Shown here one piece after another: positions 12,901 through 64,000 of a stretch of DNA of 64,000 bases. The position numbers and the translations under genes are program-made. This DNA comes from Aptenodytes patagonicus (lineage: Eukaryota; Chordata; Aves; Sphenisciformes; Spheniscidae). The DNA is taken from NCBI RefSeq assembly GCF_965638725.1, contig NC_134951.1, positions 70,579,568 through 70,643,567 on the forward strand. Direction: 5' to 3'. The notes beneath the pieces were generated by a model that did no database searches, was not told the origin of the DNA, and saw nothing but the letters and a program-made list of their open reading frames with translations. The stretch's first letter is position 1. Each line of letters begins with the position of its first letter.

Positions 12901-15900
12901 CTGCTTCCCCATTCCCGTGCAGCGCTCCCAGGATGGTGCCTTTTTTTAGACACCTGAAAGTGACCCTATTTAGAAATACCATTAAAGTTCTCTTGAGATT
13001 ACATCATACCCTCGGCTTTTATTTTCTTTTCTTTCATCTTATTAAACGTACTAATTTCTGCCTCCCGCTTACAGCTCAGCCTGAGGCCTACAGTGGCTGA
13101 ACTTCAAGCAAGAAGAATCCTTCGATTTAATGAGTACGTGGAGGTCACGGATTCTCCGGATTACGACCGTCGTGCCGACAAGCCTTGGGCCAGGTTAACT
13201 CCCGCAGACAAGGCAAGGGACAAATGTAGATTATAAGAAAATGCTTGCATCTGTCACTTTTGGGGGGCTTTCCTCTGGTTTACATTCTCTTGACGCCAGC
13301 ATCACGAATGACATCTGCTGGAGGCAGCGAGATTGTCATGGTACTACCGTGCATCTACTGCTTGCAGCTAAGAAAACCCACTCAGGTGCCTATTAAGAGC
13401 ATATCTGCCACCTCCATTACAGCAGTTCAGGCCAGAATTTCTTGCATTTTTAAAGCCTTGCTAAGCCAGGCACACACTGTTAGCAAAGATGGCCACGACC
13501 CGTGGAATCCAGGCAAGGTTTCTGCAGGCAGAAGCCTGCGTCACTGCCACCGAGAGTTACTTCTGCAACTCATGCAAGTGAAAAAAGGTAGAAGCTGCTC
13601 CATCCTCCTAAGGGTTCTTGGCCACAACTGTCAGTGCAGGAGCTGACCGTATGCGTGCAGCACACCTTCTTGGGAAACTTGCCCCCAACATGCTGCAGTT
13701 AATAGTTCCTCTGCCTAACTACAAAGGATGAGACAAATGATTCTGTGATTCTCTTTTAAAGACCAGATCAGTCAAAGATTACCATAAAATACTCTTCCAT
13801 TTCCCTCCTATACCACTTCATAAAAGGAAAGCTGTAGAATTTATGTATCAAAAAGTACTGGCCCTTTTAGCACAGGATCTGAACCAACTTTTATGGAAAT
13901 CCTATGAGATGTGCTTGGCATGAAAAGTGATATGTGCAAGAACCCACTGTCTTTTAGCTAAGGACTGTGAAGCACTGATTTTACTTCAGCTTGTATTTTA
14001 ATACGAATGCCAGCTTATCTGATAATCAAAGGAGAATCTCGTATCAAGTCAAGGTGGAAACATAAAAACGTACCCAGAAGTGTTTGTAGATGTTGCTTCT
14101 GGGAGATGCTGAGCACTCTCTAGTCCCCACATAGTCTGTGGAAGGTTAGAGCACCCAGCACCTCCACCTAGGTCCAACCAGGGTAAACTGCACTAGAAAA
14201 AACACTGGAGTTTCCTACCTACTTTAGGGTAGCAGGTTTTAATCTCAATTCATTTTGTAACGAACAGGTGCCCGAGGCTGGTTCTGTGATCCCCATGTTT
14301 GTTGGCCTCAGCAGAAAGGCAGACCCCGGGTTGCCTGGAAACTCCCTTGCCCTTTTTTCCCAAGGAAGCAATTTTTCTAATTCCAGTGGGAACAGAAAAT
14401 TGTACTGTAACTATATTACGGAGCTGGAGCTCTGGTGTCTTTGCTGCTGATTTGGTGCTCAGAAATAACCATCTCTTTCCTAGCTATTACAGCAGCCTCC
14501 TGTAAGCATGCTGTTGTGGCTAAACGGAACCATCCCCCGCTTAAAATGAAGTTTCTCATTTATGAGACCGCAGTCTGGTGATGCTATAATTTTATCATGC
14601 TGCTTGTCTGTTCTGCATTGAAAGGCATGCACACCAGATGAGATTTCTTTAGGGATTGATGAAATGATACTGCTTTTGTTTAAAGTGGTGAAAGAAAAGA
14701 GTAAGTAAGAATAAACTGTAATTTCATTTCACAGTGAAGGTAGGAAAGCGTATGGCATGGAAACAAAAGCCCTTGTAGTACGCATTAGAATGTTTCAGAA
14801 ACTGTATGTAGTACCTGATGAAGTAAATTGCTTATCACTCTTTCAACATAAGCAACAAGGCATTTACAAAGCGCACTGAATTTCTGCTGTTCTTTAGTAT
14901 CTGCCACCTGAAGACACAAGCTTGAAATGTCCAAATATTTCATGTAATTTTACATAAAACTAATCAAACCAAGTGACTAATTCCACTTAAAAAAATGCTA
15001 TTCATCTTGCATTCCTGAATTCGTGTCTTCAGTGGGGAGATACAAGACCCCTGCTGCGTGTACAGTGCCTGTGCAGGCAGCGTGACTCACCAGCTCCTCA
15101 GGGGCTGCGCCTGGAGATACAATCCCCTCGGGGTTGCATACTCAGCAGGTGACTGTCAAGGTGACCCAGTCCCTTGCCCATTTTTGTCTGTAGCAAGTGC
15201 CGTATTTCAGTGGGGGGTTGGTTCACCCATTGCAGTAGATTTGATGTTTCTTTGTTTATTGTTGGTGTTTGATGCTTTGGGTTTCTTTGTAGTGTATTAC
15301 TGCTTCAAATAGCTGTAATTGAAAAAAGTCATTCATGTTGATGATGAGAAATGTGTAAGAGCTGTAGATTACGGTAAGGGAGACTGGAAAATGGGAACTG
15401 TAAGGGAACCTGCAAGAGTAGGGCCAGGTTCCTCTCAGACCCTACTCTCTTCAAGATTCATATTTCTTATGGTTGCATATATCATTATTGTTTATTAGGC
15501 AGCAATACGGAAAGAACTGAATGAATTTAAAAGCACAGAAATGGAAGTACATGAGGAAAGTCGGCAATTTACCAGGTGGGTGAATCCCTCTTCTTGCATA
15601 AGTCAGAGAGATGAGTGTGACAGCAACCCTCTGCCTTTCTGCAAGTCCTCTGCAGTTGTGTCATGACTTGCGTAGAGTCCTACCGTGAGTCCCCTTGAAT
15701 CCCACCTGAATCCCACCGCTGATTCTGTTGGGATTTCCTGTGTTGCTGGTGCCATCCCTGAAGTTGGGTAGTTGATACAGCAGTGAAGGTGGCTGCAGTG
15801 GATCAGTTGCTACATGGAAAAAGATTGTTTGGGAAATCTAAAAAATAATCCTTTGAAAGGACTCAGCATTTCTCGCAGATGAAGTTAACAGTCCTCAAGC

Positions 15901-27900: not shown

Positions 27901-28980
27901 TAACAGTTGGGTGATTCTGCTCTTAGTTACCTTGTGAAAAGCTAGCTTTGCTATTCCACCTGTCACTAGGCTTGCAGTATAGACATACTAGAGGAAGGGA
28001 GTTGCTCCTGTTAGGTGCAGTCCTGAGAAAACCATTCACAACATGCAGTCAAAGGGTTGCTAACCTTCCTGTACCACGAGGTGTGTACAACAACCTTCAG
28101 ATGGCCGACAGCAACAAGATACTCACCATGGACTTTTAGGAAGCAAGAGGAAAGGAAGCTCTAGCCTTTGCATGGATATAGGCAGGGATAATTTGAATCC
28201 TCCGAGTACAGGAGTCATTTCAGCTGATGGAGCAGATCAAATTAGTTTGTGCACTTCCATGATAGTGATGTGATGAAACATGATGGTAAAGATGCAAGAC
28301 TTCAGAAAACAATAGCCAAAAGAGTGAAAATCTGGGCTCTTTTGGACCTTTACTGACACCTACTGAAAAACAATGAAATCTACTCAAATATGATTAAAGC
28401 TAGTATTTTAAGGTATACATTTACTTATATATTTAGCTGCATACATATACACACATAATATGTGGATAATTCTTTCTTAATTTTGTTGTTGTTATTGTTT
28501 TAATTGTCTATATGCACATGGAAGAAACCGCTCCCTTCTGTGTTATACACTTTCTTTTTGGAATGTAACAAAATGGTTTTACATCATATTCTTAAAATAC
28601 CAAGCATACTTTTTCTTAGCAAGGAGCGTGTATGCATTTGTCTATGTGTTTGTGCACAGGCATGCTACATGGCATAGGTATAATTTATGCAGCTAGAGTG
28701 TCATATCACAAGAAATAAGAACTCATATATGGCAATACACTGTTAATATCAATACATATTATTTACACCTGAGCCTTCAAATTCAGCCTGGATATGAGCT
28801 TGTGCAGAGCCAGAATGCAAAGGTCCCTGTCAAAGACCCCTGCGGCACAGCTAGTTGAAGAGGCCCTTTCTGCCGGGCCAGAAGGCGAGTACTGCTGTGC
28901 CTCCTGTCTCACACAGGTTCTTTATAAAAGTTTATTGTATTTTATTGTAGCGCCTGAGCACTTAGTGCAGTAAGTGAAAT
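24906..28980. other. AT-rich intergenic region
   Basis: The region lies between the presumed end of PHACTR2 and the LTV1 CpG island. It includes a CA dinucleotide repeat at 26142-26166. Open frames of up to 123 residues show no recognisable domain. It could partly be a longer PHACTR2 3'UTR. Confidence 0.5.
26142..26166 (+). repeat. (AC)n microsatellite
   Basis: About 12 perfect AC dinucleotides lie in intergenic sequence. Confidence 0.9.
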
Positions 28981-29701
28981 GACTAACGTCTGTCACGTAA
29001 CCTTCTCCCATCTCCTTCGCTTGGACCGGCGAGACGTGCAGCTGTAAGCCCTGCCGTCGTCGGGCGCGCTGGGGATTTTCTGTTTGTGTGGAGCCTGGGG
29101 AAGGGTTTCCTGTTGCCGCCAGGAACGACGGCCCCAGGGAGCTGCGCTGCGCGGCCGGCGCGCAAGGCGGCTCCGCCAAGGGCCGGCCCGCAAGAGGAAC
29201 CGCGACGACGGCGGGCACGGGCGGTAACAGGTTGGGGGGCGCGGGAGACAACCGACAGGTGGCTGCGAACTCTCAGAGATGCTCTTCTCTTCCCAGCATC
29301 TCGCACCGCCACCGCCACCGCGCCGCTCCCCGGGGCCGGGCTCCGTCCCGCCTCCCCAGTACCCACCCGGCACCCGCGCCGCCGCCACTGCCTCACGGCG
29401 GCTGAAGGGGCTTCCTCCCTCCCCTCACCCCGCACGCCCTGCGCGCAACGCGTGGCGCCCGGAGCCTGCCCGGGGGACCGGGGCGCACCGCCGCCCGGCC
29501 ACCGCTCTCCCGCCGTTGAGGGGACGGCCGAGCACTCCCCACGGCCCCGCCGAGCCCCCTCAGGCGCCGCCCCGCCCCTAACGGACGCGGCTGGCAGCGG
29601 GAGCAGGGGGCGGAGCCCCGAGCGCCAAGCCACGCCTCTCTGCCGGCGAGCTCCGGCCCGCCCGACAGCTCTCCCCTTTCTGCGAGCGACAGCGCGGCCA
29701 C

Positions 29702-29713
29702 TGCGCACGCGCA
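29702..29713. promoter_or_regulatory. NRF1-type palindromic site
   Basis: TGCGCACGCGCA fits the NRF1 consensus YGCGCAYGCGCR. It lies about 400 bases upstream of the LTV1 ATG. NRF1 sites are common in CpG-island promoters, often bidirectional ones. Confidence 0.6.
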
Positions 29714-29977
29714 TTGCCCTTTGGCCCGCTCCAAAGTGTTCTGCCATTGCGGCCCGCTGGAGAGTGGAACCATTCTCTGCTAATTTGGGGGGAGAAGGAG
29801 AAAAATATGTCTGTGAAGGGTGGGGCGAAAGTACCCTGCTTGCGTTCACGGAGGCTCTCTTTTATTGAACCGCTATTTAAGTCTGAGGACACTCTCGTTG
29901 TTGTTGTTACTGGGGAAAAAAGCAAACTGTCCAGAGTGGCAGCCTATCGTCTTCCCCCCGTTGGTCGCTGGTTTATC

Positions 29978-29990
29978 CCAAGATGGAGGC
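29978..29990 (+). promoter_or_regulatory. LTV1: YY1-type site upstream of the LTV1 start
   Basis: CCAAGATGGAGGC resembles the long YY1 motif AAGATGGCGGC. In ribosomal and housekeeping promoters this motif often lies just downstream of the transcription start, so it may mark the LTV1 5'UTR. Confidence 0.5.
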
Positions 29991-30113
29991 CGCAGCTCGG
30001 CGGTGCTGACGGCCGCCCCGCGTGAGAGCGAGCAGAACCGGGGGTGCCGTGAGCGGCCGTAGCGGCTCCCCTCGCCGGCGGGCGGCGCGCGCTGCCAGGC
30101 CTGCCCTTGCGCC

Positions 30114-30116
30114 ATG
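30114..30116 (+). CDS. LTV1: LTV1 first coding exon: initiator Met only
   Basis: GCGCCATG|GTGAGG: the start codon has a good Kozak context and is followed at once by a consensus donor. The next exon begins CCT CAC AAG, giving Met-Pro-His-Lys-Lys, the known LTV1 N-terminus. Confidence 0.9.
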
Positions 30117-33100
30117 GTGAGGAGGGGCGGAGGGGACAGGGCGGCCGCGAGCGGCTCGCTAACTGTCGTCTGTGTCCGTTGTCCCCCAGCGTTTGGGTTG
30201 AAATCGGGCCGTTTCGGTAGCGCGGCTGAGAGGGGAGAAACGGCACACGGACCGCTTTGCTTGCTGGACTGTCCGGGAGCTTTCCCCGGCTCGGCCCGGC
30301 TCGTGGGGTCTGCCCCGGCAGCGCCGGACCCGCGACGGGGGGCGGGAGGTGGCGGCGGCGAGGGGGAGGCGGGCCGGGGAGGAGGCAGGCAGCGGCGGCG
30401 TGGGAGAAGCCGCGCTGAGGGGCGGCCTGCCTCCCCAGCGGCCTGGGCCGCCCGGGCGGGAGCGGCTGAGGCGCGTCCCAGCCTACCGCGGCGTCCCGAG
30501 GTGTGTGCCGGTAAGCCGGCGGGGGTGGGCGGCTCTCCTGCCCGGCCTCGTGCGGCACCGCCGTGTTACAAGCACCTCGCTCGTACCATCAGTCACCGGC
30601 GAGTTTATTTGTAGGGGTAGCACGTTGCCTGCTTCCAAAAACTTACTGTATTTCTTTCTATGGTTGCTCCAAGCGTAAGATTTTAAAGCGCAGTTTGGGG
30701 CTTTTAACTCAAAACATACGGTGGCAGTTGATATGCTCTGAACTTTGGTATGACGTAGCGTGTAATGTTGTGTGCTTAAAGTTACCGGGTAAAGAAGGTA
30801 GGTTAGATCCGTAGTTTCCAACTTGCATATATCTGCTATTAACACGTTTTGATAGGTAAGTAAAGCTGGGAATTTTGATAAAAGTATTTCCCCAAGTCAG
30901 ATGTGCTAAATCGTAGAAAAGGCTTTCACGCAGTTGAGAATACTTCAGATTTTTCTTGATCCAGAATTTAGCTATATTTTTGATGTTAGAGCTATGTCTG
31001 TGTAATGGTGAGTCGATAGTTTTCATGGTTAATACTGAATTACGGGTGTAGGAACAGCTGTCTAAACAATTTTCAAGAAGCTAGGTGTGTCTAGATGAAT
31101 TTCCTTATGTCAGTTTCCTGTGTTTCTTGGATGAAGTTTGTTTCAGATTTGACCCAGTGTTTAGAAAGTAGTTACTTAAAAATTCCTTTCTAGGATTATA
31201 TGTTAATGTGTATATGCTATAATCAAATGTTTATTGTACTGATGTATTGCCGTTTTGCAGCTGAATACAGCTGCATATGGTATTAGAACATATGAAATGG
31301 CTGTTGTGCATGTGGTGAGAAGAGTTAACAGCTACCACTAGTCTCTTTTTGCTTTGTCTCTAAGTATATGTTGCTAAGACTGACTTAAAAGGAATGCAGT
31401 AGCACACTCCAGGCAAAAGATTCTTTTTAGGTGCATTTAATATTTCTTTTTTTATTAATGATTAACCAAATGTCCTTTTGCAGCCTCACAAGAAAAAGAA
31501 ACCCTTCATAGAGAAGAAGAAAGCGGTAACGTTTCACTTAGTGCACAGAAGTCAGAGGGATCCACTTGCTGCTGATGATACTGCACCCCAGAGAGTTCTG
31601 CTGCCTACCCAGAAAGTAAATACTTGCTTTTAGTATTGAGGTTCATTCAGATAAGAAATGCTGCAGGAGAAGAAAGTGGATATGCAATCGTACAATTCAA
31701 AAACATAGCCTAAGAGAAGGTAGTTTTTAGTCCAGCTTATTGAAAAGAAGGGGATGTTGTAGGGAATTCAATAGTTGTGAGTTACTACCTGATGGGTTGA
31801 AGGAAGACTAACTGGCATTAGGGATATAAACGTATTAAAACAACAACACCTAAGATTGTTGTTGAAAAGACAGGCTTTGTTAGTTATGCTGCTTATGGAA
31901 AAGGTTGTTTAAGGTCCTGCTCGGACAGCACCCGAACACTGAACCAGATGGTTACAACGTTCTAATTGGAGGACTACAAGGACTTTAGAATTTAGGCATT
32001 CTCAATAGGTGTGTTACTTTTCTTTTTGTTAATAAGTTTTAAATGGACTTAAGTAACTAAACGTACTTCTTTTTACAATTCCAAGGGGCATGAGGAGCAA
32101 AGGAGGGAAGAGCAGCGGAAATATGGAGTCTTCTTTGATGATGATTACGACTATTTGCAGCATCTAAAAGAAGCCTCTGGTCCCTCTGAGCTTGTCCCTT
32201 CTGTGTGTGGACAGCAAAGCAGAATTGTTGTCACAAGTGAGGGGCACATAGAAGATGAAATTCAGCGAGTTCCAGTAAGTAGTATTTTCACTAATAATAA
32301 TCTTACACTGTTCTTTGGAGTTTAGCATCCTGTAGACACATTAACCATATTCAACAAGTGTTATTGTGACTGCGAGATAGAGAGATATGTATCTCCTCTC
32401 TCTCTATATATAGGATCCTTTTGACCCACAGTCAGACTTTCCTACAAGTAAAAACAAAAGTTGACAAGCTAACGTTTATTGATGAACAGTATTTTGCTAG
32501 CACAGTGTTAAAACACTTTGTGTACCCATGACAAGCTTTTCTTGACAGAGATGGCTTACAAAGGTATTTGTTTGAACAAGTCGTGTTTTTCTCGGGTTGG
32601 CATTTGTTTTTAAGATTTTTAGAACTTTTGAATGCTCTGGGAGTTAAGAGTATACCAGGTTGTATTACCAGTACACCATGTTTTTAAAGTGGAATGTAAC
32701 AAAACCCAGAGGGAATAAAAAAAACCTTTTCAGTTGCTGGCATAACTTGTGGAATTGCATGATGCCAGATCATGTTGGAATGGAAAATCAGTAAGTAATT
32801 TCAGGCAATGAACTATGCAATTGCCAATCGGTCATTTTTAATTGAGGGAGTTTGGCTTAACCAAATACTGTAATTTTAGTTGAAACCAATGTTCTTAGTC
32901 AGAAATACTGTTCAGGTACAGTTTGGTGATACTACATAAGATTTAAAGTTATTTTAGATGTGCATGTTAGTAAGCTTTTAATAAGCCTTTCAATAAAGGG
33001 GTAATTTCAAATGTGTGTTAGTGTTCTCCAAAACAAAAAAAAAATACAAATTTCATTGTGCCTGCTGTACAACCATTCTCTAAAAAGCTTCAGAGATGCA

Positions 33101-36100
33101 AAAATACTGTCTCTATACCTAGAGAACATTGACATGAGAATTAATGCTGTCAACACTTTACCTAGCTTTCATTGCGTAACTTTGAAAATTTGCCACCAAT
33201 AAAGTAGTGCTTGTCTTAATATTTAAGTAGCACTCACAGAGTTTCTTTTGGTCACATGATTATCTGCACATTTTTGTTAATGTGAGCTCAAATGAGAAAC
33301 TGAGAGCAAGTATACTGTGATGTTGGTTTTTTGTTTCTTTTTCTAAGGCTCCATCTATTAAGTTGCCTTCCTCAGTATTTGCCACAGAGTTTGAAGAGGA
33401 TGTGGGCTTATTAAATAAAGCTGCTCCTGTTTCAGGTATCATTAAATCTTTGACCTTTCTGTAACGTGAGTTGCCATCTAGGTCCTAGATGGTAATTATG
33501 GCTTCGATTACAGTGTCATATTAGTTTTGGTTTAGGACAGGCTCAATAGCAGACATAAAGAATGATCTGTAAGAGACCCGTGTTTCAATTTGAGACCTGT
33601 TTCTGTCATTCACTAATGATAGGTTTTTAGCTTTGCTTGGAGGGGGGACACGGAGTCCATGAGCTCTTACTGTTGTGTAGCAAATATAAACTAATAACAG
33701 GGGAAAACTGTAGATAATACTATTGATTTATTACTCCATCTGTTTGAATCCAAGTCTGGAACTGGATTTTCACTCTCAAAATTTCTCTTCTTTTCAAATG
33801 CTGAGTGGTGTTTACTTTCCTTCGTTAGTATTATTTCAATATTACAGGCTGTCAGTACGCTTTTGTTACGTATCCGTGCTTGCACTGAACATTCACTTTA
33901 CAGCTATCTTAATATTTTATAACAGGAAGTAGTTGTGGTAGTTCTCTCCGTCCTGACAGAAGGATGCTAAAGACACTTCTGTTAATTGCAGTAGAGAAAC
34001 ACTTTCTGACCTTTTTTAATGTAGGGAATTTCAGGGGGTGGGAGCTAGGGTTGGCAGTTGATCATACAGTACTTTAACTTGGGTATTTTTTCTTCTACAA
34101 TATTCTGAGTAAAATATATTAAAATACATTTATGGAAGCTTAAGACCTCTGGGGAATGTTCTTTTCTGGATGAGGAAAATTGACAAGAGGCTGGTGACTT
34201 GCCCTGGCTTGTATCAAATCTACAAATACTATTGAGCAATTTTGTGATTCTTAGGTTTAATCTTTCCTTAGTGCAAATTAACAGTCTAGTTGGATTGTTT
34301 TTTATCCAGTAGCTTCGTAATGTCAGAGAAACTTATATATTTATGTTTTGGGTTTTTTTTAACTTTCTAGGGCCACGGCTGGATTTTGACCCTGATATTG
34401 TTGCAGCTCTTGATGATGATTTTGACTTTGACAATCCAGAAAATATCCTGGAAGATGATTTTGTTCTACAAGCGAATGAACCACAGAAAGGGTACCTAGA
34501 GCTTTGTAGAACTGTTTTGTCATATGTAAATAGGAATGCTGCTATTTGTTATTTCATGTGGTGGTGTAGGAAGCAAGAACGGTTTCAGATTTCAAATTGA
34601 ATACTTAGGTGTGTTAAGGAAAAAAGTATTACCTTGTGTTATGTGGGTGGTAGCTTACAACATCAAGTTTTCATGTGTTATCCAAGAGATGGGTTTCATT
34701 TGTTACTTTGAGCTCATGGATTATATGTATTTGTTTACAGATGCAATGTGTGGAATAATAGGATTCTTGAACTATTTAAAACATTACCATCTGTCACATT
34801 TAAAATACATCAGTATTAACATTGATGAAGGCTAACGGGTGTTTCCAGAACCTTTACAAATGCTTCATGTGATGCCCCACTGCATATTATTTCTTTAGTT
34901 TTGGTATCATTCTCATCATTCTATGAACAACAAGAAATTTTACTAGCTTTAATATTCAAGAATGCAGCTAGTATTTTTCTTTTTCCACTTTGACATGTAT
35001 AGCTGAGTGTAAACATAACCTCACTCTCAGTGCACAGATGTGTGATCCAACAGTTATCAGAGATGTTTTCAGTTTTCAGACAGAAGTAGTATTATGCTGA
35101 CTTTGGCAACACCATTACTGCTAAACCTGTTTTTCTTTTACTAGCTTGAAAATAATCACTTTTTATATTTGCCTTTCAAGATTTAAATCTATTATTGCCA
35201 AATTGTTTCAGACAACCCTACGTTGGTCAGAGTTGTGGAAAGGTCCGTGTATTATTCTAAAACTGTTTTATACTTCTGTTCAGGGGATCTGATGCTGAGG
35301 ATGAAGATGAATGGGAAGATGTGGAGGATGATAGTGATGAAAAGGATAGTTGCAGTAATGATAAAGACTATGATTCAGAAGGTCCTTTATCAGATGATGG
35401 AGTTAATGGACAGACAAAAGAATTTCTTTTTATGCAAGAAGAAACCAGGAGTCGTTTCACAGAATATTCTATGACATCTTCAGTAATGAGAAGGAATGAG
35501 CAGTTAACCCTGTTGGATGACAGATTTGAGAAGGTGAGGCAGCTCAGGAATGTAACTGTTAAACATAAGGGTGTTAAATGCTTCTTTGTCTTTTGATTCA
35601 TCTCATAAAGTTGTGTCCTGTATGCCTGTGCAAATTCTTACTGCCTTCAGTAGTCAGGGCATCAAACAGCTGTTCTGTGCACATACTCTGCATTTAATAT
35701 TGTGTGCACTGAGTGGCTTGTATTACATAGGTTATAGTGTTGATTGCTATTAAAAGGCCTAACACTGATACAGTTAAACAAAATTATTCCAGTTGCTATA
35801 ATGAGCATTCATAGTTGGTGTTACCCTTTTGTCCGAGAGGCTCAGTTAAGCGCAGCAAATCCTGTACAAGTGCCTGGTAAAGACTCACTTCTTTCACCCT
35901 CTCTCCCCACTGTGCCAAGTGCGCGTTCATGAAATGATGTCAGAGCAGTGGAAATACGGTGTAACTGTTGTCCTGAGCAGCGACAGGCTTCTTAATGTAC
36001 AGTTTGAAATAATGCATCATAATAAGAAACATTTTCCAGAAACTGATTTATTTATTATTAAAAGATAAGTTTGTGACTCCCATGCTGAAAGAATACTGAC

Positions 36101-39100
36101 AGTAAGGAGGAAATCCTACTGCAGATGTGTCTGGCAGTTGTTCAGCAAATGAGAGGGGAGAGGAAAAAGGGGCAAATAGAAAGAAATGCGTAGATCTTTG
36201 AGCCATCGAGAAGTTGCATGACAAATGTGATCTAATTACAGATATCCACTTCCTTATTTTAGTTTTTTGAACAATTTGATGAAGATGAAATTGGAGCCTT
36301 GGATAATGCGGAGTTAGAAGGCTATATTAACACGGACAATGCTCGGTTGCAGGAAGTCCTGAATGATTACTACAAAGAGAGAGCAAAGAAGTATGTATTC
36401 CCAGAAGTACCGCTTCACATAAGTATTTTTGTGATCCTGTGTTTATATGGAAAGTTTGGGTATGTTGTTTCCAGGTCACGTACTCAAAGATGACATCCCA
36501 CAATAAAAGCAGCTACGTATGAGTATTAACCAGTTCTTTTTATGTCACCAAATGTCAATCTTAGCTTATGAGATGATAAAATTAAGTGGAGGCATTTTGT
36601 TGGTTTACGTGAGATTATGCTCCTTTTGTGTAATTGTATTGACTTTAGTGTAAGTAATATCTAGAGGCATTCTTCCTTTCCCTTTTTAGTATAACTTACC
36701 TTTCTCCTTATTTACTTTCGTTTTTAACAGACTCTGTAGCCAAGTATATTCTGTCCTGCTGGTATGCAGCTGATTCCACTGTACCTAGTGACATGATAAT
36801 AAACTCGCAGGCAACTGTTGCATGGGTACCACTGTTCGGAGCACTGCAAAAATCAGTGCTTATAAAGCAACCCTGTGTCAGCGTAAGCCTGCATTTCCAC
36901 AGTATATTCACTTTGTCTTAAAGCAGGTGATATTATCCCAAAGTTAAATGGCTAAATGTTCTCACATCAGTCTTGTGTTTCCTGATTGAAAGATACGGTA
37001 ATGTGTCCCTTGTAGTGAAAGATGACTGGTCAGTAGTAGAGTACATAATCACCTCTAGAGCTGCCTTGCTTACAGACTAAAAAGTGTACACCCTCTTCTC
37101 TTCCTGCCCTCCAATCACAAATACCATGTGCCACATAATTTTGAAATGCAGAAATACTTCTTTGTCGACTCTGTCTCTTGTCCTACTGTTTTGGTTTATT
37201 TTGGGGATGCTTACTTAAGGAAACTTCTTTTTGCTGCAAGTTTCATTAGGAATAGCTTGCTTTGGTTTGGGGTTTTACTGAGGGCAGACTGGGTGTACAT
37301 ACTTACGCATTTTCAAGAAAAGATACACCTTATCTTTTTTTCTTTGGACTTCTTCAAAGTTGTGTGAAATTGGATGCTCTTGAACCCTGTGAAGATTTAG
37401 ACTCTCCTATGAATGAAGAAAGTGAGGAAGAAAAGGAAGAAATAGTAGCTGTAGTTATTGAGGAACCAAAAGAAAAGTGGGATTGCGAATCCATTTTGAG
37501 TAAGTATTTTGGAGTTCGCTTGTTCCTAAGATTTCAAAGTAAACAATAGGTGATCTCAGAACTTTTCTAACAGTGCTTTAGGTAAAATGGTTTATGCTTC
37601 TGGAGCACAACAGCAGGAATTCTTGCTAGATAAAACTACTACTTTTGTGTGGATAACGTAATTCTTGCGATTTTATATCTTAAAAGACTAAACAGTAGTA
37701 CAATTCATAATAAATTTACCTAATTTCTATTTGCAAGCCTTTCTTCACTACTTTCCCCCCCCCTCTTTGTGACCTAGGTACGTATTCAAACTTATATAAT
37801 CATCCAACGCTTATTAAGGAGCCATCAAAGGTAAAATCATTAAACTTATTCTGAGTAATAACCTGGCTTGGGAAAATTTGAGACAAAAGTGATTGTTTTC
37901 TCAATGGATATCTGTTTTTAAAAGAAGGAGGGAGCAGAAAAGAGGGTTGGGGAGGGTGTTAGCCTCTGGTATTACTTCTTCACTGAAGAAAGGTTTGGAT
38001 ATATTTTTTTTTTTCTTTTAGAAGGAGAATTGAGTAAGTTCAAAATTTCTGTAATAGCTAGGCAGAAACAGGGAGCAAGGAACTTACTTCCTTGTTATCT
38101 GTGATAGACCTTTGTGTAATCTGTCTCACAACCACATACTAGTTTTTTTTTTTTTCTTGAAAATAGGCTTGTATTTCCCTTCTACAGTTTGAAACAGTTT
38201 ATTCTAGTTCTTTGGCCTTCCAGACATTCCCCGTCATTAGCGCAGAGCTTGATGTTCCAGATGTGTGAGATTTTGAAAGGAAACCTTTTTCTTGAAAGCT
38301 TATAAAGGAATATTAAATGCCTATTTAAGTTCTTTTTTTTTTTCCCCCCCCCCAGTAATATTTAAATAAAAGGGAGAAACTTTTTTTTTTGTTCTGGGAG
38401 GCCAGATTCTGCTCACGGAGTGTTTGATTTCTTCCTTTGGGATTAATGTGCATTTTTCTGAGGGAAGAAAATACTATGAGGAAACTTGCATGCTTATTAC
38501 CGCTAAATCTGAATCTAATGTTTTTATACTGATAAGGCAGTGCGATGTGCACTTCTTGGAGAGAAAGCTAGGGACCATTAATACATACGCCCTCTCTATT
38601 TTAGCCCAAACCAATAAAAATTTCCCAGAAGACCGGAATTCCTCTCCATATCTTGCCTCAGAAAGGTCTTACTGCTAAGCAGATTGAGCGCATGCAAATG
38701 ATTAATGGCAGTGACCTGCCAAGAGCATCAACACAGCCCCGTTCCAAAGATGAGAGCAAAGAGGATCGCAAAGCTAGAAAACAGGCAATAAAAGAGGAGC
38801 GAAAGGTATGCCTTATTTTAAATAAAACCCTGCAAAAACATGTTATATTACCTGCATTCTGTCTTACGAACTTTTCTTAAAGCTCATTTGTTCTTGTATC
38901 TGGAAATTAATGGGAAAAACTTGCCGGTCTCAAAGGACTAATTATTGCTTCTTTAAAGAAAAATCTACTGGAAAGAAAGTTAACCTCATAATTTTGTCAT
39001 CCTAATTTCCTATATGGAAATTTTGGTCTGTTATTGTGGCCATTCTTACATATATAACTTTGGAAGGAGCCCATGTATTTCCTTATTATCTAGGGAAGCA

Positions 39101-56643: not shown

Positions 56644-57919
56644 TTATTTGAAGGCATGGTGAAAATGAGGCAACGTTACAGAATTTGTAGTGGATGGAAA
56701 GGAGCGAGGAAGATGATGCAGCTGGTTTATGGCCATCCCACCAGTTGCTAGCTGAAGACCTTGCTGTTGGCTGAGGCCATTCAGCCTGTGTGATGGTTCC
56801 TCTGGACCAAATGCCATTGTGATGTCCCCAGTAGTGTTCTGGTTGTCACCTGATGGGAGCTGCCAGAAACTCATCACATGAGTGAGATCCATGAAAGGCA
56901 GGCTTGTAGTTTCAGCTGCTGCCTCTGTCTCCTTGTGCACTGGGTACTTGTTAGTATCCCCTACAGGCCCTGAGGAAGCTTCTTCCAGACTGATTTTGTG
57001 GAGAGATTGAGGTTCTGGTAACGGCAGGTCCTCAAGAAGATGCACGTTGTAACCTTTAACATCCACTTTTATCGGTAGATTCTTGAGGGATCCTGCTGCA
57101 AATGAGGTAGAACTAAGGTCATATTTATTAGGCTGATGAAGGTTCAGGTTGGCAGGAACGGCTGTTGAGCATGGTGTGGGATGGACAGCTGGCAGGCTGT
57201 CTGCGCAGCCCATCCTTTGCAAATGAGGAGAAGGTTCAAGAGGAAGAGCAGTTTGTAAGCTTGTCTGGGAATGAAGATGTGAACAGTTGTATTCCCCTGA
57301 TTCTGAACTATTCAAAATCCCATTCTGCACAGAGACCCTTTCAGGAAAAGGGGACAGTATGCTGGCATCTTCCTTCAGCCTGAATGGAAAAAGCTGGTCA
57401 AGGAGACCCACTGAGTCACCGTTCTGCAACCTGCTCTTCAGCAGTTCTTGTGGATGAGTCTTCCTAGTGTGGCGAGTCAAGTGGTCCTTCCGCCCAAACC
57501 TCTGGGCACAAAACTGGCATAGAAAGTCTTTGCAGCCTGTGTGAACTACCATGTGACGCCGCACGTCTTTACGGGTATAGAAGTGACGCTCACAGTGGTC
57601 ACACTTATGTTTCTTTTCCTTGGTATTGCCAGTTGGTTTCCCTGCATGGCTTTTGAGGTGTTCCAACAAAACTTCAGTACCGCCAAACTCCTGGGCACAT
57701 ACCCTACAGGTAAGGTCCCCACTGGTGGCTGCATGAAGAGCCAAGTGTCTCTTATAGCCTAGCTTGGTGTTGTACTTCTTGCCACACTCTTCACACTTGA
57801 AGGCCATCTTGTTAGGGTCATGAGTCTGAAGGTGATTCTTTAGATGGTCTTTCCTGTGAAAGGTCTTTTCACAGTAGCCACACTGGTGAGATTTCTGTGG
57901 AGAATGAGTGGCTGAGTGC
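56644..57919 (-). CDS. PLAGL1: PLAGL1 last coding exon: fingers 3-7 and activation region
   Basis: The acceptor on the minus strand is TTTTTTGTCTTAG. The exon completes an Arg codon, then encodes [20 protein letters not shown] and the remaining fingers without interruption. The last 270 residues are Ser/Pro/Leu-rich with [15 protein letters not shown] and end HAFK then TAA. The conserved linker [20 protein letters not shown] matches PLAGL1. Confidence 0.97.
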
Positions 57920-60492
57920 CTAAGACAAAAAAAAAAAAAAGTTACTTGCCTTTACATTCACTCTAGTACACAGTACAGCTTCAAGACTTGAAAACACTGG
58001 CACTCTTGAAGGAAGGCATTTCACAAGTTCTCAGATTATTAGTAAAAGCCTAACTTTTTTTGGGGGAAAGGTGTTAATCATAAAGCACAGAGTAGGTTAA
58101 AATTGCTCAACGTAATCTTTTTGAGCAGCCACCGCAATTGAGGGAGATTAGTTTTCTGCAATTCTACCAAAACAGGAATAATAAAAATTGGAACTCGGGG
58201 ATTAACTGTCACTAGGACACTCAAGAGGAAAAAGATGTCCTTGGTTTTTTCCCCACACACCCACCAGAAAAGGATTGCCTTCAGAGTTGTACCTGAGCAG
58301 TTTATATTTGGAAATGAAGGCTTTTGTGCATCCGTGCTGTGAACACTTGTAGGGGCGCTCCCCTTTGTGCGCGTAAGTGTGGACTGTGAGCTTGTCAATG
58401 GAATCAAATATTTTCCCACAGAGTCGGCAAGGGTAGCCGTCCGGCTGCTTCACTTCTCTTCCCTTCAGCAGTGAAGACCGGCCATTTCTCCATTTAGGTA
58501 TAAACCTCACAAGAGCATCACAATTGCTTCCTGAGCTGGCACAGCTAAGCTTTGCAGCAGAGGAACAGGAGATGGTCCCGTAGCACTGAGCAATGCTTTT
58601 GCCTAATGCCGCTCCTCTCAGTTTCCCTTTGAGTTTGCTTTTTGCTTTTACGGGTCCCAATTTATTTGGTGGTCTGAACCTGGTGGTAAGGACCCGGTCT
58701 TTATGGATGCACTGGTGAGATTCTAGCAGAGCAAAAGTTGCAAAAGTGCTTCTACAGCTGGAGCATATCCAAGGGTCTACAGACTCTTTCTGCAATGAGA
58801 ACAGAAACAGGTCTTTCTTATTAGCCGTTCTAAGGAAAGGTCATATTCTTCTCATTGACCCTACATCTTCTCCTGGGCTTTCCCAAGACCTGTCATTGTC
58901 CTTAGCGATATTTACTTCAATGTACTACCACACAGCTGTTGAATTGGAAATGGATTCTCTCTAGGAGTCTACAAACCAGAAGGAAAAAAAAAATGGTTGG
59001 CTAAATACCGATTTCCATGTTTTTGTTTAGCATTTACTGTAACAGTCCTGAGTCCTTCACCTTTGTTTATCTGTGCTTACTGAATTTCAAAGTCTCTACA
59101 TTTGTTCCTTTTATGGAATTACTCATAAAAGCAGTTGCAAATTGTACTTCATCCTTAGACTGACATAATTTATCTGCTATTGCAACCATACAAAAATTGG
59201 GTGCGTTTCTGCACGCAACTGTAGTTTAGCCATACAGGATTTCCTTACGTTTTGGGCTGACTCCATGCTTTACTGGACGGTAATGGCCAACGCCTCCAGG
59301 AGAGACTTCCTCACTTAGCTTGACATTTGGCATTAGACTTTCTTAAAATTGATAAGAAACACCTTAGGTTTGGGGATCTCAAGCCCATCCTGACTTAGAG
59401 GCATTAAAACATAACAGGTTTTTGGCAAGCAATGTATTATTTGGAAGTATTATTTCTGTGGAAATAAAAGCTCTACTGGATTCAGTTGAATCCACTTTAA
59501 ATATTGACATTTTAAAAATTCCAATGAAAAACAATTACAAAAAACCCTCAGTCACTGATGAAATGTACTTCCAATTAATACACAACCATGTACTTCCTTA
59601 GCTGTCTCTATATTTTACTTAAGCTTCTCATAAACCATCCTTACTTCCCCTTGCTCTTGGGCTAGCTTGCTCTGGAGAACATGGTGAGGCTATGTCCACT
59701 CTGTCTTTACTTACAGACAGAGCCCTCCTCCACCTTATCTGCGTCTGATGCTGTGGCCCTCCCAGCCCTTCTTTCTGGCGTATACTCTAAAGCTCTCATA
59801 TGCAAATGCAACAACGGGGTTACTTCCCCTCCTGCAGCACCTCTGAATTCCTGGTTCTATCATATTCCCTGTTTAACATTTCCTCCTAGCGTAGATATCA
59901 ATCTTCAGGGTCATATTTTCAACACTTACAAACTTTTCCTATCAGTTTAAGGATTCTTACTGTCATACAGAGGGGAAGGTATTGGGGTTAGAAGAGAAGG
60001 GTTATTGCACAGGAAAAACTGAAATAATCAGCGCATTATCTGACCAACCGGTCAGAGCATAACAGGGGGGAACTGGTGAAAGAAGTCTGAGGCTGGACAG
60101 CTTGGTTGTCTACAAATTAAGTCTTTTCAACACATCCCACTGGTGCCACTTACTTCTGGCTATATCTAGTGGCTCCACTGGATTACAAACACAGGAGAGG
60201 AAGAGCAGCCTTTCTCTGCATAGCTGTTTGGTTAAAATTGCTCTCGGCTTTGTGTTAGCCTACTACTCTATGGTCTACTCTAGCATTACCAGAATTACAT
60301 AAACAGAGAAAGCATGTGAATTGTAATTTACTATGTCTGGTGATGGCTTGAATGCAGATTAGGGGTACTTACTGCTACTGGAGGCAAAGGACAGATGTCA
60401 GATTCTTCTTTAATGAAGACTGCAGAAGCTTCCATAAATTTGGCATAATCGGCAGCATACCATACTTTCAATTCTGTGTGGGGTTCAATCGG
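56644..60492 (-). CDS. PLAGL1: PLAGL1-type seven-finger transcription factor with N-terminal PR/SET end (C-terminal 630 aa)
   Basis: Minus-strand coding exons, 5' to 3', are 60492-60373, 58789-58293 and 57919-56644. They total 1893 nt in one frame (630 aa plus TAA). PLAGL1 (ZAC1) is a nuclear C2H2 transcription factor, imprinted and growth-suppressive in mammals. Numbering from the first residue here: residues 1-40 hold the end of a PR/SET domain; C49, C52, H65, H69 form an extra C2H2 finger; a basic linker follows. The seven PLAG fingers begin at C161 and C189 and end near 360, with [13 protein letters not shown] in the last. A Ser/Pro-rich activation region follows and ends LPHFHHAFK, matching the PLAG family end. 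PLAGL1 is chosen over PLAG1 and PLAGL2 by synteny and by finger sequences. The N-terminal part is unlike mammalian PLAGL1. Further 5' exons lie outside the window. Confidence 0.9.
57920..58292 (-). other. PLAGL1 intron
   Basis: Short intron inside finger 2. No other feature seen. Confidence 0.9.
58293..58789 (-). CDS. PLAGL1: PLAGL1 exon: extra C2H2 finger, basic linker, PLAG fingers 1-2
   Basis: The acceptor is TCATTGCAG and the donor is CTCAG|GTACA (minus strand). The exon begins [21 protein letters not shown]-x2-C-x12-H-x3-H is intact. About 90 residues rich in Lys, Ser and Gly follow, then [18 protein letters not shown] (finger 1) and [19 protein letters not shown] (finger 2, C-x4-C). 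Finger 2 is completed by His codons in the next exon. No methionine starts the exon. Confidence 0.92.
58790..60372 (-). other. PLAGL1 intron
   Basis: AT-rich intron between the PR/SET-end exon and the extra-finger exon. Nothing else supported. Confidence 0.8.
60373..60492 (-). CDS. PLAGL1: Exon encoding the C-terminal end of a PR/SET domain
   Basis: The acceptor is CATTCACAG and the donor is GCA|GTAAGT (minus strand). The exon is 120 nt, phase 0 on both sides, with 40 open codons. [20 protein letters not shown] carries the E-L-x-V-W-Y and Y-A-K signature that closes the PR/SET domain in PRDM proteins, followed by an acidic tail. It joins the next exon in perfect frame. The earlier part of the SET domain is not found in the remaining 3.5 kb. 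Confidence 0.82.
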
Positions 60493-63400
60493 CTGTGAAT
60501 GGAAGAAAATAGTGTATGTTTATTTGTGCCAGTTTTCCTATAGTGAAGATTGGTGGGGGGTGTGTGTGTGTGCAATTTGTGTCCTTACCCAAGTTGCATT
60601 CTTTGAATCTGTTTAAATTATTGGTAACTTAGTTTCAAAATTCAAGCACTTTTTGAGCATTACTATCCACTAGCATTTGACACCTTCACAGTTTCTAAAA
60701 GCAGAAATGCATACGTAAAGAGATTTTGGGAGGACAACAGCAGGAGGGGTGCCTCAGCCCTCATGACCTTTGCTCAGCGAGATCTATTTGTCTGTGATGT
60801 CCAGACATCCAGCAGTCTTTCCAAGCAATATCCCATGCCTACTCCTCGATGTTTCGAAGCCCACTGGACACAATGCTGAACTATAGGGTACAGGCAAAGG
60901 AGAAACGCATCGTGAACGCACAACTGCTTGGATGCCTCCTGGATGTGTCGCACTCACAGAGCGTGCATGCAGAGTTGATCAATATGTGGACTGCAAGTCA
61001 AACTTGCATGTTTCCACACGCTGGCTCTCATGTGTCAGGCTCGCTCTGCATGTGCTTTATTGTACCTCTGCCCTCCTTTCACTGAAGCCTTCCCGCACAG
61101 GTCTAAGGGAGCCCATAATCTGCAGTTTCCCATCCAGTCATGCCTGCCCAAATCTTTTCTTGGACTGGACTATGACCTCCTCTGACAAATATGTTCAGTC
61201 AATAATACAGCAAATAGAAAAAAGGAGGTGTGATTACACTCACTGGCTAAAGATCCATTGGTTATTTAAAAGCAAAGGAGAAAACTAGCTTTGGGGTCAA
61301 GATTTACATGACTCCCTGGCTCTGTACACAATTTTCTTCATCTATAATAAAAAATACCATTGCTGCAACAGGGGTGGAGCCAATCTGCACTGTACTTGTA
61401 GTTTTATTTAAACTAAACTAAACTTGTGCCACTAAAAAAGAACAAACTAGCCTGGAAGGAGAGCAGCTGAGACTTATTCCACAAAATGTGAAATCTTAAA
61501 ACACACATTTTTTAACATCGGTGTTGGATAAGCATGGTAGGTGAAAGACAACTTAGATTGTGAATGCTGACAGGTGACAGGTAATTGTGTGTATGATGTC
61601 AAAAACTGAACTTTTGAACTTCCAAGAACAAGGCTGCTTGCTAACTACAACCAGTATGGGTTGGTTGTACGTTTGGATAACACATGACCTAAACAGAAAT
61701 AGTATGTGCTGAATTCTCCACTCAATAAAGGACATGAGGCAGAGCCACCAACTAGGAGGCCGATTATGCACTGTGCTCCTGCATAGAGTCTATTTAGATG
61801 CAGAAAACCAAGCCTGGGGGAGCTCCACAGAGACAAATGCCTGGGGATGCCCCGGGACTTTGGCCAGTGACACCTGAGACTGGTACCCACAAACAGCTGC
61901 ACAGCATGATACTGTCATGACTTTCTGCCCAACATTCCCGGACCAGCGGCGATAGAATATAATAGAATCATAGACTCATTAAGGTTGGAAAAGACCTCTA
62001 AGATCATCGAGTCCAACCGTCAACCCAACACCACCGTGCCCACTAAACCATGTCCCTAAGCACCTCATCTACTTGTCTTTTAAATACTTCCAGGGATGGT
62101 GACTCAACCACTTCCCTGGGCAGCCTGTTCCAATGTTTAACCACTCTTTCAGTAAAGACATTTTTCCTCACGTCCAATCTAAACCTCCCCTGCCGCAACT
62201 TGAGGCCGTTTCCTCTTGTCCTATCGCTTGTTACTTGGGAGAAGAGACTGACACCCACCTCGCTACAACCTCCTTTCAGGTAGTTGTAGAGAGCGATGAG
62301 GTCTCCCCTTGAGCCTCCTTTTCTCCAGGCTAAACAACCCCAGTTCCCTCAGCCGCTCCTCAGAAGACTTGTTCTCCAGACCCCTCACCAGCCTCGTTGC
62401 CCTTCTCTGGACATGCTCCAGCACCTTGACGTCCTTCTTGTAGTGAGGGGCCCAAAACTGAACACAGTATTCGAGGTGCGGCCTCACCAGTGCCGAGTAC
62501 AGGGGCACGATCACTTCCCTACTCCTGCTGGCCACACTATTTCTGATACAGGCCAGGATGCCATTGGCCTTCTTGGCCACCTGGGCACACTGCCGGCTCA
62601 TGTTCAGCCAGCTGTCAACGAGCACCCCCAGGTCCTTTTCCGCCAGGCAGCTTTCCAGCCACTCTTCCCCAAGCCTGTAGCGTTGCATGGGGTTGTTGTG
62701 GCTGAAGTGCAGGACCCGGCACTTGGCCTTGTTGAATCTCATACAGTTGGCCTCGGCCCATCGATCCAGCCTGTCCAGGTCCCTCTGCAGAGCCTCCTCT
62801 GTGGGAAGCTGAGACCTAGTCAATGTGACTTTGGAGGGAGAGCAAGTGTGTGAAATAGTCAAGTAAGGTAAAAGTTTCATTCTCAGTAAAACTGAGATTA
62901 AACACCAGTATCCAAATCCACTACAAGTTGTCATTTATTCTGTCTCACCTGTGACAATAACAGAAAGCTATGGTAGCACCCACATGAAACTCTCCTGTGA
63001 TCAGACAGATAGCAACCATGGATGATTTTTACTTCCTCATAATTCTATACTTTTAAAAAATACTTATTTCTAGGGACTGCAGTCATTAGGTCAGCAAGTA
63101 CGCTAACGGTGCTGTTAGCATGCCATTTACATGTATGCTTTTGTAGCTGCAGCTTCATGTCACTGAAACCCCATCTCTTTGTAAAAACAGTTGGGAGAGG
63201 ATTCAATCCTTCTACTCCCAACTTAAGAGACTTTATTCAAAGTATCTTGAGAAACTATCTTCATAACCAGCCCTAAGGCAGCCTCATGACATGACCAGCA
63301 GGGTGTGCCTAAGTGTAGCAAAAGCCTATCACTTTCACTGACTGGGGGACAATCTGCAGGATGCCACAGTACTGTGAATGATACTGGGACTTAGGAGCAA

Positions 63401-64000
63401 GAAAACCAAAGTAATTCCCAATGATACACAGCACAGTTCCAAGACACATTCCTCATCCTAAGATACTCTTCATGTCAGTATATAGGATGCAACTCTCCAT
63501 TAATGCCAGTGAGCAAAGTTCTGCTGAAGTCAGCAGAGAGCTGGTTCAATAATATTTAAATTACACTGGAAATTGTAAATTACCAGTTTGTAACTACAAC
63601 TGCTTTGAAGAGCGTGTGTTCATGCTTCCCAAATATAGTATTATTAATCCTGTCAGTTCTACACGTATAGTATGCATTGAAAAAAATCAAACTGAAATCT
63701 CAAATGGTATGGACTGCATCAGAACTTCAAACACAGCCTGAACACTGTCTCAGATTAGCATATACTGTTTTACATTGATTTTCTTCTTTTTTTTAAATTA
63801 TTTTATTATTCATCCAAAAGCAACTATATGTAACACTGTTATAAAAGACTTTATAAAAGTGTTTTCAGCATTAACTTATTCTCACACCATCACTGTGCGG
63901 TAAATATTTTTCTCACTTTGCAGATGGAGAAAGAAAAATGGAGGAACAAAAGTTAACACTACTATCCCACAGAAATGTGTGCCAATTTTGGAAATAAAAC
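60493..64000 (-). other. PLAGL1 upstream intron (partial)
   Basis: I searched the minus strand for an exon with the rest of the PR/SET domain and found none with both splice sites and recognisable sequence. It contains the CR1 copy at 61951-62816 and a short (GT)n tract near 60558. Confidence 0.6.
61951..62816 (-). mobile_element. 5'-truncated CR1 LINE (ORF2 C-terminus and 3' end)
   Basis: The minus strand encodes the end of the CR1 reverse transcriptase polyprotein: [20 protein letters not shown], then [20 protein letters not shown], and, after a frameshift, [20 protein letters not shown]. It ends with the CR1 3' terminus, where ATAGAATCATAG-type octamer repeats lie at 61951-61975. CR1 is the dominant LINE of birds and other sauropsids. 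About 860 bases remain, so it is 5'-truncated. The coding frames are largely intact, suggesting a fairly young copy. The 5' border is approximate. Confidence 0.93.

Follow-up and report, generated by a model that had tools for sequence, protein, structure and literature searches.

PLAGL1 of a penguin genome very probably encodes a PRDM-type protein with a PR/SET domain ahead of its PLAG fingers

Mammalian PLAGL1 begins at PLAG finger 1, without a zinc knuckle, PR domain or extra finger; does the same gene encode a larger, PRDM-type protein in a bird? The question is raised by 64,000 nucleotides of the Aptenodytes patagonicus genome (C3:70579568-70643567 of a 1.35-Gb assembly, C3 being contig NC_134951.1; hereafter the window), on the minus strand of which a sequence-only reading had joined an exon closing a PR/SET domain to the exons that carry the PLAG fingers. 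In this work, we followed up that reading in the window and in 120 kb added upstream of the gene. We conclude that PLAGL1 here very probably encodes a PRDM-type protein, in which a knuckle and a PR/SET domain belonging to the PRDM4/10/15 class are followed by one finger, by the seven PLAG fingers and by the PLAGL1 tail, and that this PR domain was most likely lost in mammals. The gene has been studied intensively as an imprinted regulator of growth and is a candidate tumour suppressor. We found no description of a PR domain in it among the titles and abstract starts listed from the open-licence literature; automatic public gene models may already include the exons.

A six-exon frame and its PR domain

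Three exons of the gene lie in the window (exons C, D and E; Table 1). The first, exon C, is flanked by TTCACAG at its 3' splice site and GTAAGT at its 5' splice site, in agreement with the consensus sites attributed to it. The C-D join is in phase 0 and the D-E join in phase 2, which confirms the in-phase joins of the sequence-only reading and gives one frame open over 1893 nt, stop included; many stops interrupt the other two. Exon D has 0 stops in its coding frame against 8 and 9 in the others. As it holds both the finger that follows the PR domain and PLAG finger 1, with no intron between them, the link from the PR domain to the PLAG fingers does not depend on splicing alone. The open frame of exon D contains no methionine, so PLAG fingers 1 and 2 need a start further upstream.

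Taken alone, the 40 residues of exon C match positions 101-122 of the 123 in the Pfam model PRDM2_PR (E 3.2e-4, 20.8 bits, under the cut-off of 27), and their top match in the PDB is PRDM10 (E 0.0022). This places them inside the PR family, as had been proposed, and is a suggestive lead rather than proof, because pieces of this size number in the thousands in 64 kb.

The other SET exons, which the sequence-only reading had expected upstream, were found there. Three more minus-strand exons (B, A and Z) lie in the correct order 0.85 to 4.6 kb past the window edge and encode, in phase with exon C, the remaining PR domain and a zinc knuckle that reads CEDCGKSLIGECKLHG. Together, Z-A-B-C-D-E amount to 2312 nt in a single frame that runs through 769 codons before its stop; all six 3' sites end in AG, all five 5' sites begin with GT, and the phases agree at every join. 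We infer that one spliced mRNA carries all six. The assembled protein would run from the zinc knuckle through the complete PR domain, a C2H2 finger (CSSC-x12-H-x3-H), a basic linker and seven PLAG fingers, counted by eye, to a PLAGL1 tail ending LPHFHHAFK; Pfam detects its C2H2 fingers, and the PR domain shares one open frame with them. Across the PR-side exons Z to C (539 nt, 179 codons) there are 0 stops in the coding frame compared with 9 and 12 in the other two, and 0 of 20000 mononucleotide shuffles of these four exons stayed open.

Read from knuckle to finger across the spliced exons, the complete domain scores 131.7 bits against PRDM2_PR (PF21549; E 1.5e-38, cut-off 27), compared with 102.7 bits for an incomplete PRDM10 segment, and 34 bits against SET, above the cut-off of 22.4. 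The corresponding PDB matches are led by PRDM4 (E 2e-24), PRDM10 (2.2e-24) and PRDM11 (7.5e-22), and PRDM proteins make up 15 of the 16 matches listed. Exon C closes a PR/SET domain, as first read. A chance match of a 40-residue piece was considered and rejected on the score of the domain assembled with the upstream exons, which puts the PR domain, judged by profile, beyond chance.

A six-frame search of the whole genome with the PR model returned 35 matches at E<=10, of which three follow one another on a single strand, no more than 7 kb upstream of the PLAG fingers, and span the profile in order (exon A 13-59, exon B 49-104, exon C 64-122). Exon B passes the cut-off by itself with 64 bits; exons A and C, with 24.3 and 24.5 bits, stay under it, and in this search their matched stretches overrun the exon edges across stop codons. 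Relatives were also sought in viral contigs, and none was found there.

The part of the B-C intron inside the window was tried as a place for a further PR exon and rejected, with no Pfam family in its three minus-strand frames and no match there in the genome-wide PR search. At 62043-62934 (minus strand) this intron holds a fragment resembling the 3' end of the reverse transcriptase of a CR1 long interspersed nuclear element; it matches no Pfam family at E<=0.01.

Table 1. Positions of the predicted exons, protein features and neighbouring genes (window positions unless preceded by C3; extended positions continue the window numbering upstream of the gene)
Feature	Position	Strand	Content
Exon Z	C3:70648203-70648048 (extended 68636-68481)	minus	Zinc knuckle exon
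Exon A	C3:70646960-70646848 (extended 67393-67281)	minus	PR-domain part
Exon B	C3:70644566-70644417 (extended 64999-64850)	minus	PR-domain part
3' part of B-C intron	60493-64000	minus	Exon B itself lies outside the window
Exon C	60492-60373	minus	120 nt, 40 residues; last segment of PR domain (60492-60427), then linker; phase 0 at both ends
Exon D	58789-58293	minus	497 nt; extra C2H2 finger, basic linker, PLAG finger 1, start of PLAG finger 2
Extra C2H2 finger, CSSC-x12-H-x3-H	58703-58765	minus	Between PR domain and PLAG finger 1; from translation, codons counted
PLAG finger 1 (CRLC...HTYAH)	58367-58429	minus	From translation, codons counted
Exon E	57919-56644	minus	1276 nt; end of PLAG finger 2, PLAG fingers 3-7 (to ~57454), PLAGL1 C-terminal tail, stop codon
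LTV1 exons	32053-38877	plus	3 of 4 pieces assigned to LTV1 match Pfam LTV
RPEL-repeat exon, read as PHACTR2	12997-13233	plus	Pfam RPEL E 0.00097, 19.2 bits, under cut-off 23

Kinship with PRDM10, PRDM15 and PRDM4

To place the domain, a tree was built from 14 PR domains or parts of them (several rows are partial) out of 16 loci counted in the genome, leaving out C4:79.7 Mb, read as PRDM2, and C3:48.46 Mb. The names PRDM1, PRDM4, PRDM10 and PRDM11 were checked by eye against PDB alignments, and the remaining PRDM names are presumed. In this tree, the PLAGL1 PR domain groups with PRDM10 and PRDM15 at 95/93, and PRDM4 joins outside them at 88/91. Pairwise identities are 63/120 (52.5%) with PRDM15, 47/106 (44.3%) with PRDM10 and 46/107 with PRDM4; those with the other ten range from 25.8 to 36.7%. 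PRDM10 and PRDM15 form a node at 81/58 with PLAGL1 outside, and the branch lengths of PLAGL1, PRDM4 and PRDM15 are 0.62, 0.66 and 0.55; the branching inside the group is too weak to separate an independent ancient lineage from an early offshoot of PRDM15.

Exon boundaries were compared by eye. The knuckle exon starts at the identical base and codon in PLAGL1 and PRDM10 (TTGTAG/GGTGTGA in both, the slash marking the boundary), and the intron before /V is common to PLAGL1 and to PRDM10 and PRDM15 of this genome (the last two at loci L024 and L050 on C23, L022 and L054 on C1). PRDM10 splits the end of its PR domain at ELK/, whereas PLAGL1 does so at TVK/, and PLAGL1 has introns inside the PR domain that PRDM10 and PRDM15 do not. 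Over 69 codons, PLAGL1 and PRDM15 are identical at 62, 71 and 42% of first, second and third positions, a pattern that points to selection on the protein. The finger exon that would follow the PR domain of PRDM15 and PRDM10 was not found in the stretches examined.

Together, the six-exon frame, the complete PR domain and the grouping with PRDM10 and PRDM15 uphold the proposal, made at first from the window alone, that PLAGL1 is of PRDM type in this lineage.

Identity of the gene, origin of the domain and rival readings

That the gene is PLAGL1 follows from its fingers and its neighbours. A genome search with fingers 3-7, in which 150 of 466 candidates were scored, exon by exon, gave three matches at E<=1e-20, namely this locus and two PLAG paralogs, and the next match followed at E 1.9e-14. 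The paralogs are 74% and 80% identical to fingers 3-7 (the latter over query 22-163); we take the first to be PLAGL2, from its N-terminus, and the second to be PLAG1, and one of the two loci is readable only in part. The first finger of the presumed PLAGL2 (L003, C14) departs from the usual C2H2 spacing, unlike that of PLAGL1. In the window, LTV1 and a gene with an RPEL repeat, presumably PHACTR2, adjoin the locus, and LTV1 and PHACTR2 are the neighbours of mammalian PLAGL1. Because of these neighbours, and because the locus is one of the three PLAG loci, we identify it as PLAGL1. A fourth PLAG paralog in its place was considered and rejected, since three of the scored candidates match at E<=1e-20 and this locus adjoins LTV1. 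Short motifs of SF3B5, looked for as a further neighbour, gave no match. Many long overlapping frames on both strands at 28900-30600 suggest a GC-rich CpG-island promoter of LTV1.

In the assembled frame, methionines occur at residues 110, 111 and 159, and the next is at 383. CpG islands lie at extended 103.5-105.0, 118.75-119.75 and 183-184 kb; the first two (C3:70683067-70684567 and 70698317-70699317) precede the knuckle exon by ~35 and 50 kb and are candidate PLAGL1 promoters.

Several results weigh against a PRDM-type PLAGL1 or its kinship with PRDM10 and PRDM15. A search for a start-codon exon yielded 0 candidates at a strict threshold and 10 at a loose one, none of them convincing; the nearest (extended 70055-70034, 7 codons) is not relied on. 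On a crude matrix, the 5' sites of exons Z, A, B, C and D score 3.0, 3.5, 1.9, 2.3 and 0.4, each of them far short of the maximum of ~8.7. Furthermore, none of the 125 finger 3-7 matches among the scored candidates falls at a PRDM10 or PRDM15 locus, and one (E 3.5e-6) lies 5 kb from the PR exons of PRDM4, so that this search gives no support to a descent of the PLAG fingers from those of PRDM10 and PRDM15.

In one account of how the domain came to be there, to which we give about an even chance, PLAGL1 is an unrecognised ancient PRDM member, a fourth branch of the PRDM4/10/15 class kept whole in non-mammalian vertebrates, and the imprinted PLAGL1/ZAC1 of mammals is a PRDM protein cut short by loss of the knuckle, the PR domain and the first finger, perhaps along with the arrival of new promoters at the locus. 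A contender a little short of even is that PLAGL1 alone gained the PR domain when it fused with a portion of some PRDM10/15-like gene, and that the domain was not an ancestral PLAG feature which the paralogs lost. Consistent with fusion, PR matches lie near only one of the three PLAG loci in this genome, PLAG1 and PLAGL2 being, unlike PLAGL1, without a PR match nearby; the finger 1-2 exon of PLAGL2 (L003, C14) has its own ATG, unlike exon D of PLAGL1; and the PLAG fingers do not best match those of PRDM10 and PRDM15. The length of the PLAGL1 branch, close to those of PRDM4 and PRDM15, and its weakly supported position outside PRDM10 and PRDM15 speak against it and imply that any fusion would be old. 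Fusion concerns origin only and is compatible with a PRDM-type PLAGL1 in this genome.

The other alternatives do touch the protein itself. The PR exons could be a decaying relic and the working protein PR-less, started for example from methionine 159 or from an alternative first exon spliced onto D. Mammalian PLAGL1 works without a PR domain, and the missing start exon and weak 5' sites fit a relic too; PRDM1, PRDM2, PRDM3 and PRDM16 make PR-minus forms (PMC4009873). We consider a relic very unlikely, however, as the 539 nt are intact with zero stops and keep their GT and AG sites, the PR match exceeds that of the incomplete PRDM10 segment, and the codon positions carry the mark of protein selection.

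PRDM11 is a gene with a PR domain only. That the PR exons likewise form a separate short PRDM gene upstream, with PLAGL1 starting independently from another first exon, could draw on the distant CpG islands and on PRDM products without fingers (forms of PRDM6 and PRDM9; PMC4009873), but is highly improbable, given that exon C joins exon D in phase behind a GTAAGT site with no stop before the end of exon E, and that exon D carries the post-PR finger in the frame of the PLAG fingers without a methionine. A PRDM-type PLAGL1 thus remains our preferred reading.

Possible mode of action and comparison with known systems

PLAG fingers bind PLAG-type GC-rich sites. In a PRDM-type PLAGL1 they would bring the protein to such sites, and the knuckle, the PR domain and the finger next to it would offer a surface to which partners in chromatin or transcription could bind. 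We suggest that the PR domain mainly recruits partners rather than acting as an efficient methyltransferase. A table in PMC4009873 enters 'no' for PRDM4, PRDM10 and PRDM15 in its last column, taken here to be methyltransferase activity. Yet PLAGL1 keeps the WY of the PR end segment and may for that reason be methyltransferase-active. This WY presumably includes the catalytic tyrosine, which we equate with residue 357 of PRDM9. In PRDM9, the tyrosine at that residue is required for efficient catalysis (PMC4919437).

Several PRDM genes yield both PR-plus and PR-minus products (PMC4009873). In the bird, translation from residue 159 (exon C) or a different first exon could give a PR-minus form; what mammals retain would be a shortened protein that begins with PLAG finger 1, the counterpart of a permanent PR-minus form. 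The loss in mammals is our inference. If ancestral PLAGL1 was a PRDM protein, then mammalian PLAGL1 would be a naturally PR-less version of it, like the PR-minus forms described for other PRDM genes (PMC4009873).

A 2007 survey of PRDM genes counts 16 in birds, as in rodents (PMC2082429), and PLAGL1 may escape any census that sets out from the members already known. In a study of the chicken retina, mouse Zac1 was expressed in chicken cells (PMC4991769); if the bird protein bears a PR domain, the mouse one would not have been its equivalent. Imprinting of PLAGL1 is found in human and mouse, but the gene was biallelic in opossum, on two informative animals (PMC3507640), and because of this difference it is now a directly testable question whether the loss of the PR exons and the gain of imprinting or new promoters fell on one branch.

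The gene shares with mammalian PLAGL1 (ZAC1/LOT1) the seven PLAG fingers, a tail ending LPHFHHAF and LTV1 and PHACTR2 as neighbours; the mammalian protein starts at PLAG finger 1, whereas the equivalent bird exon D has no methionine from which to do so. PRDM10 and PRDM15 have long finger arrays in place of the seven PLAG fingers and PLAGL1 tail found here, and a finger directly after the PR domain, observed in PLAGL1, is also a feature of PRDM10 and PRDM15.

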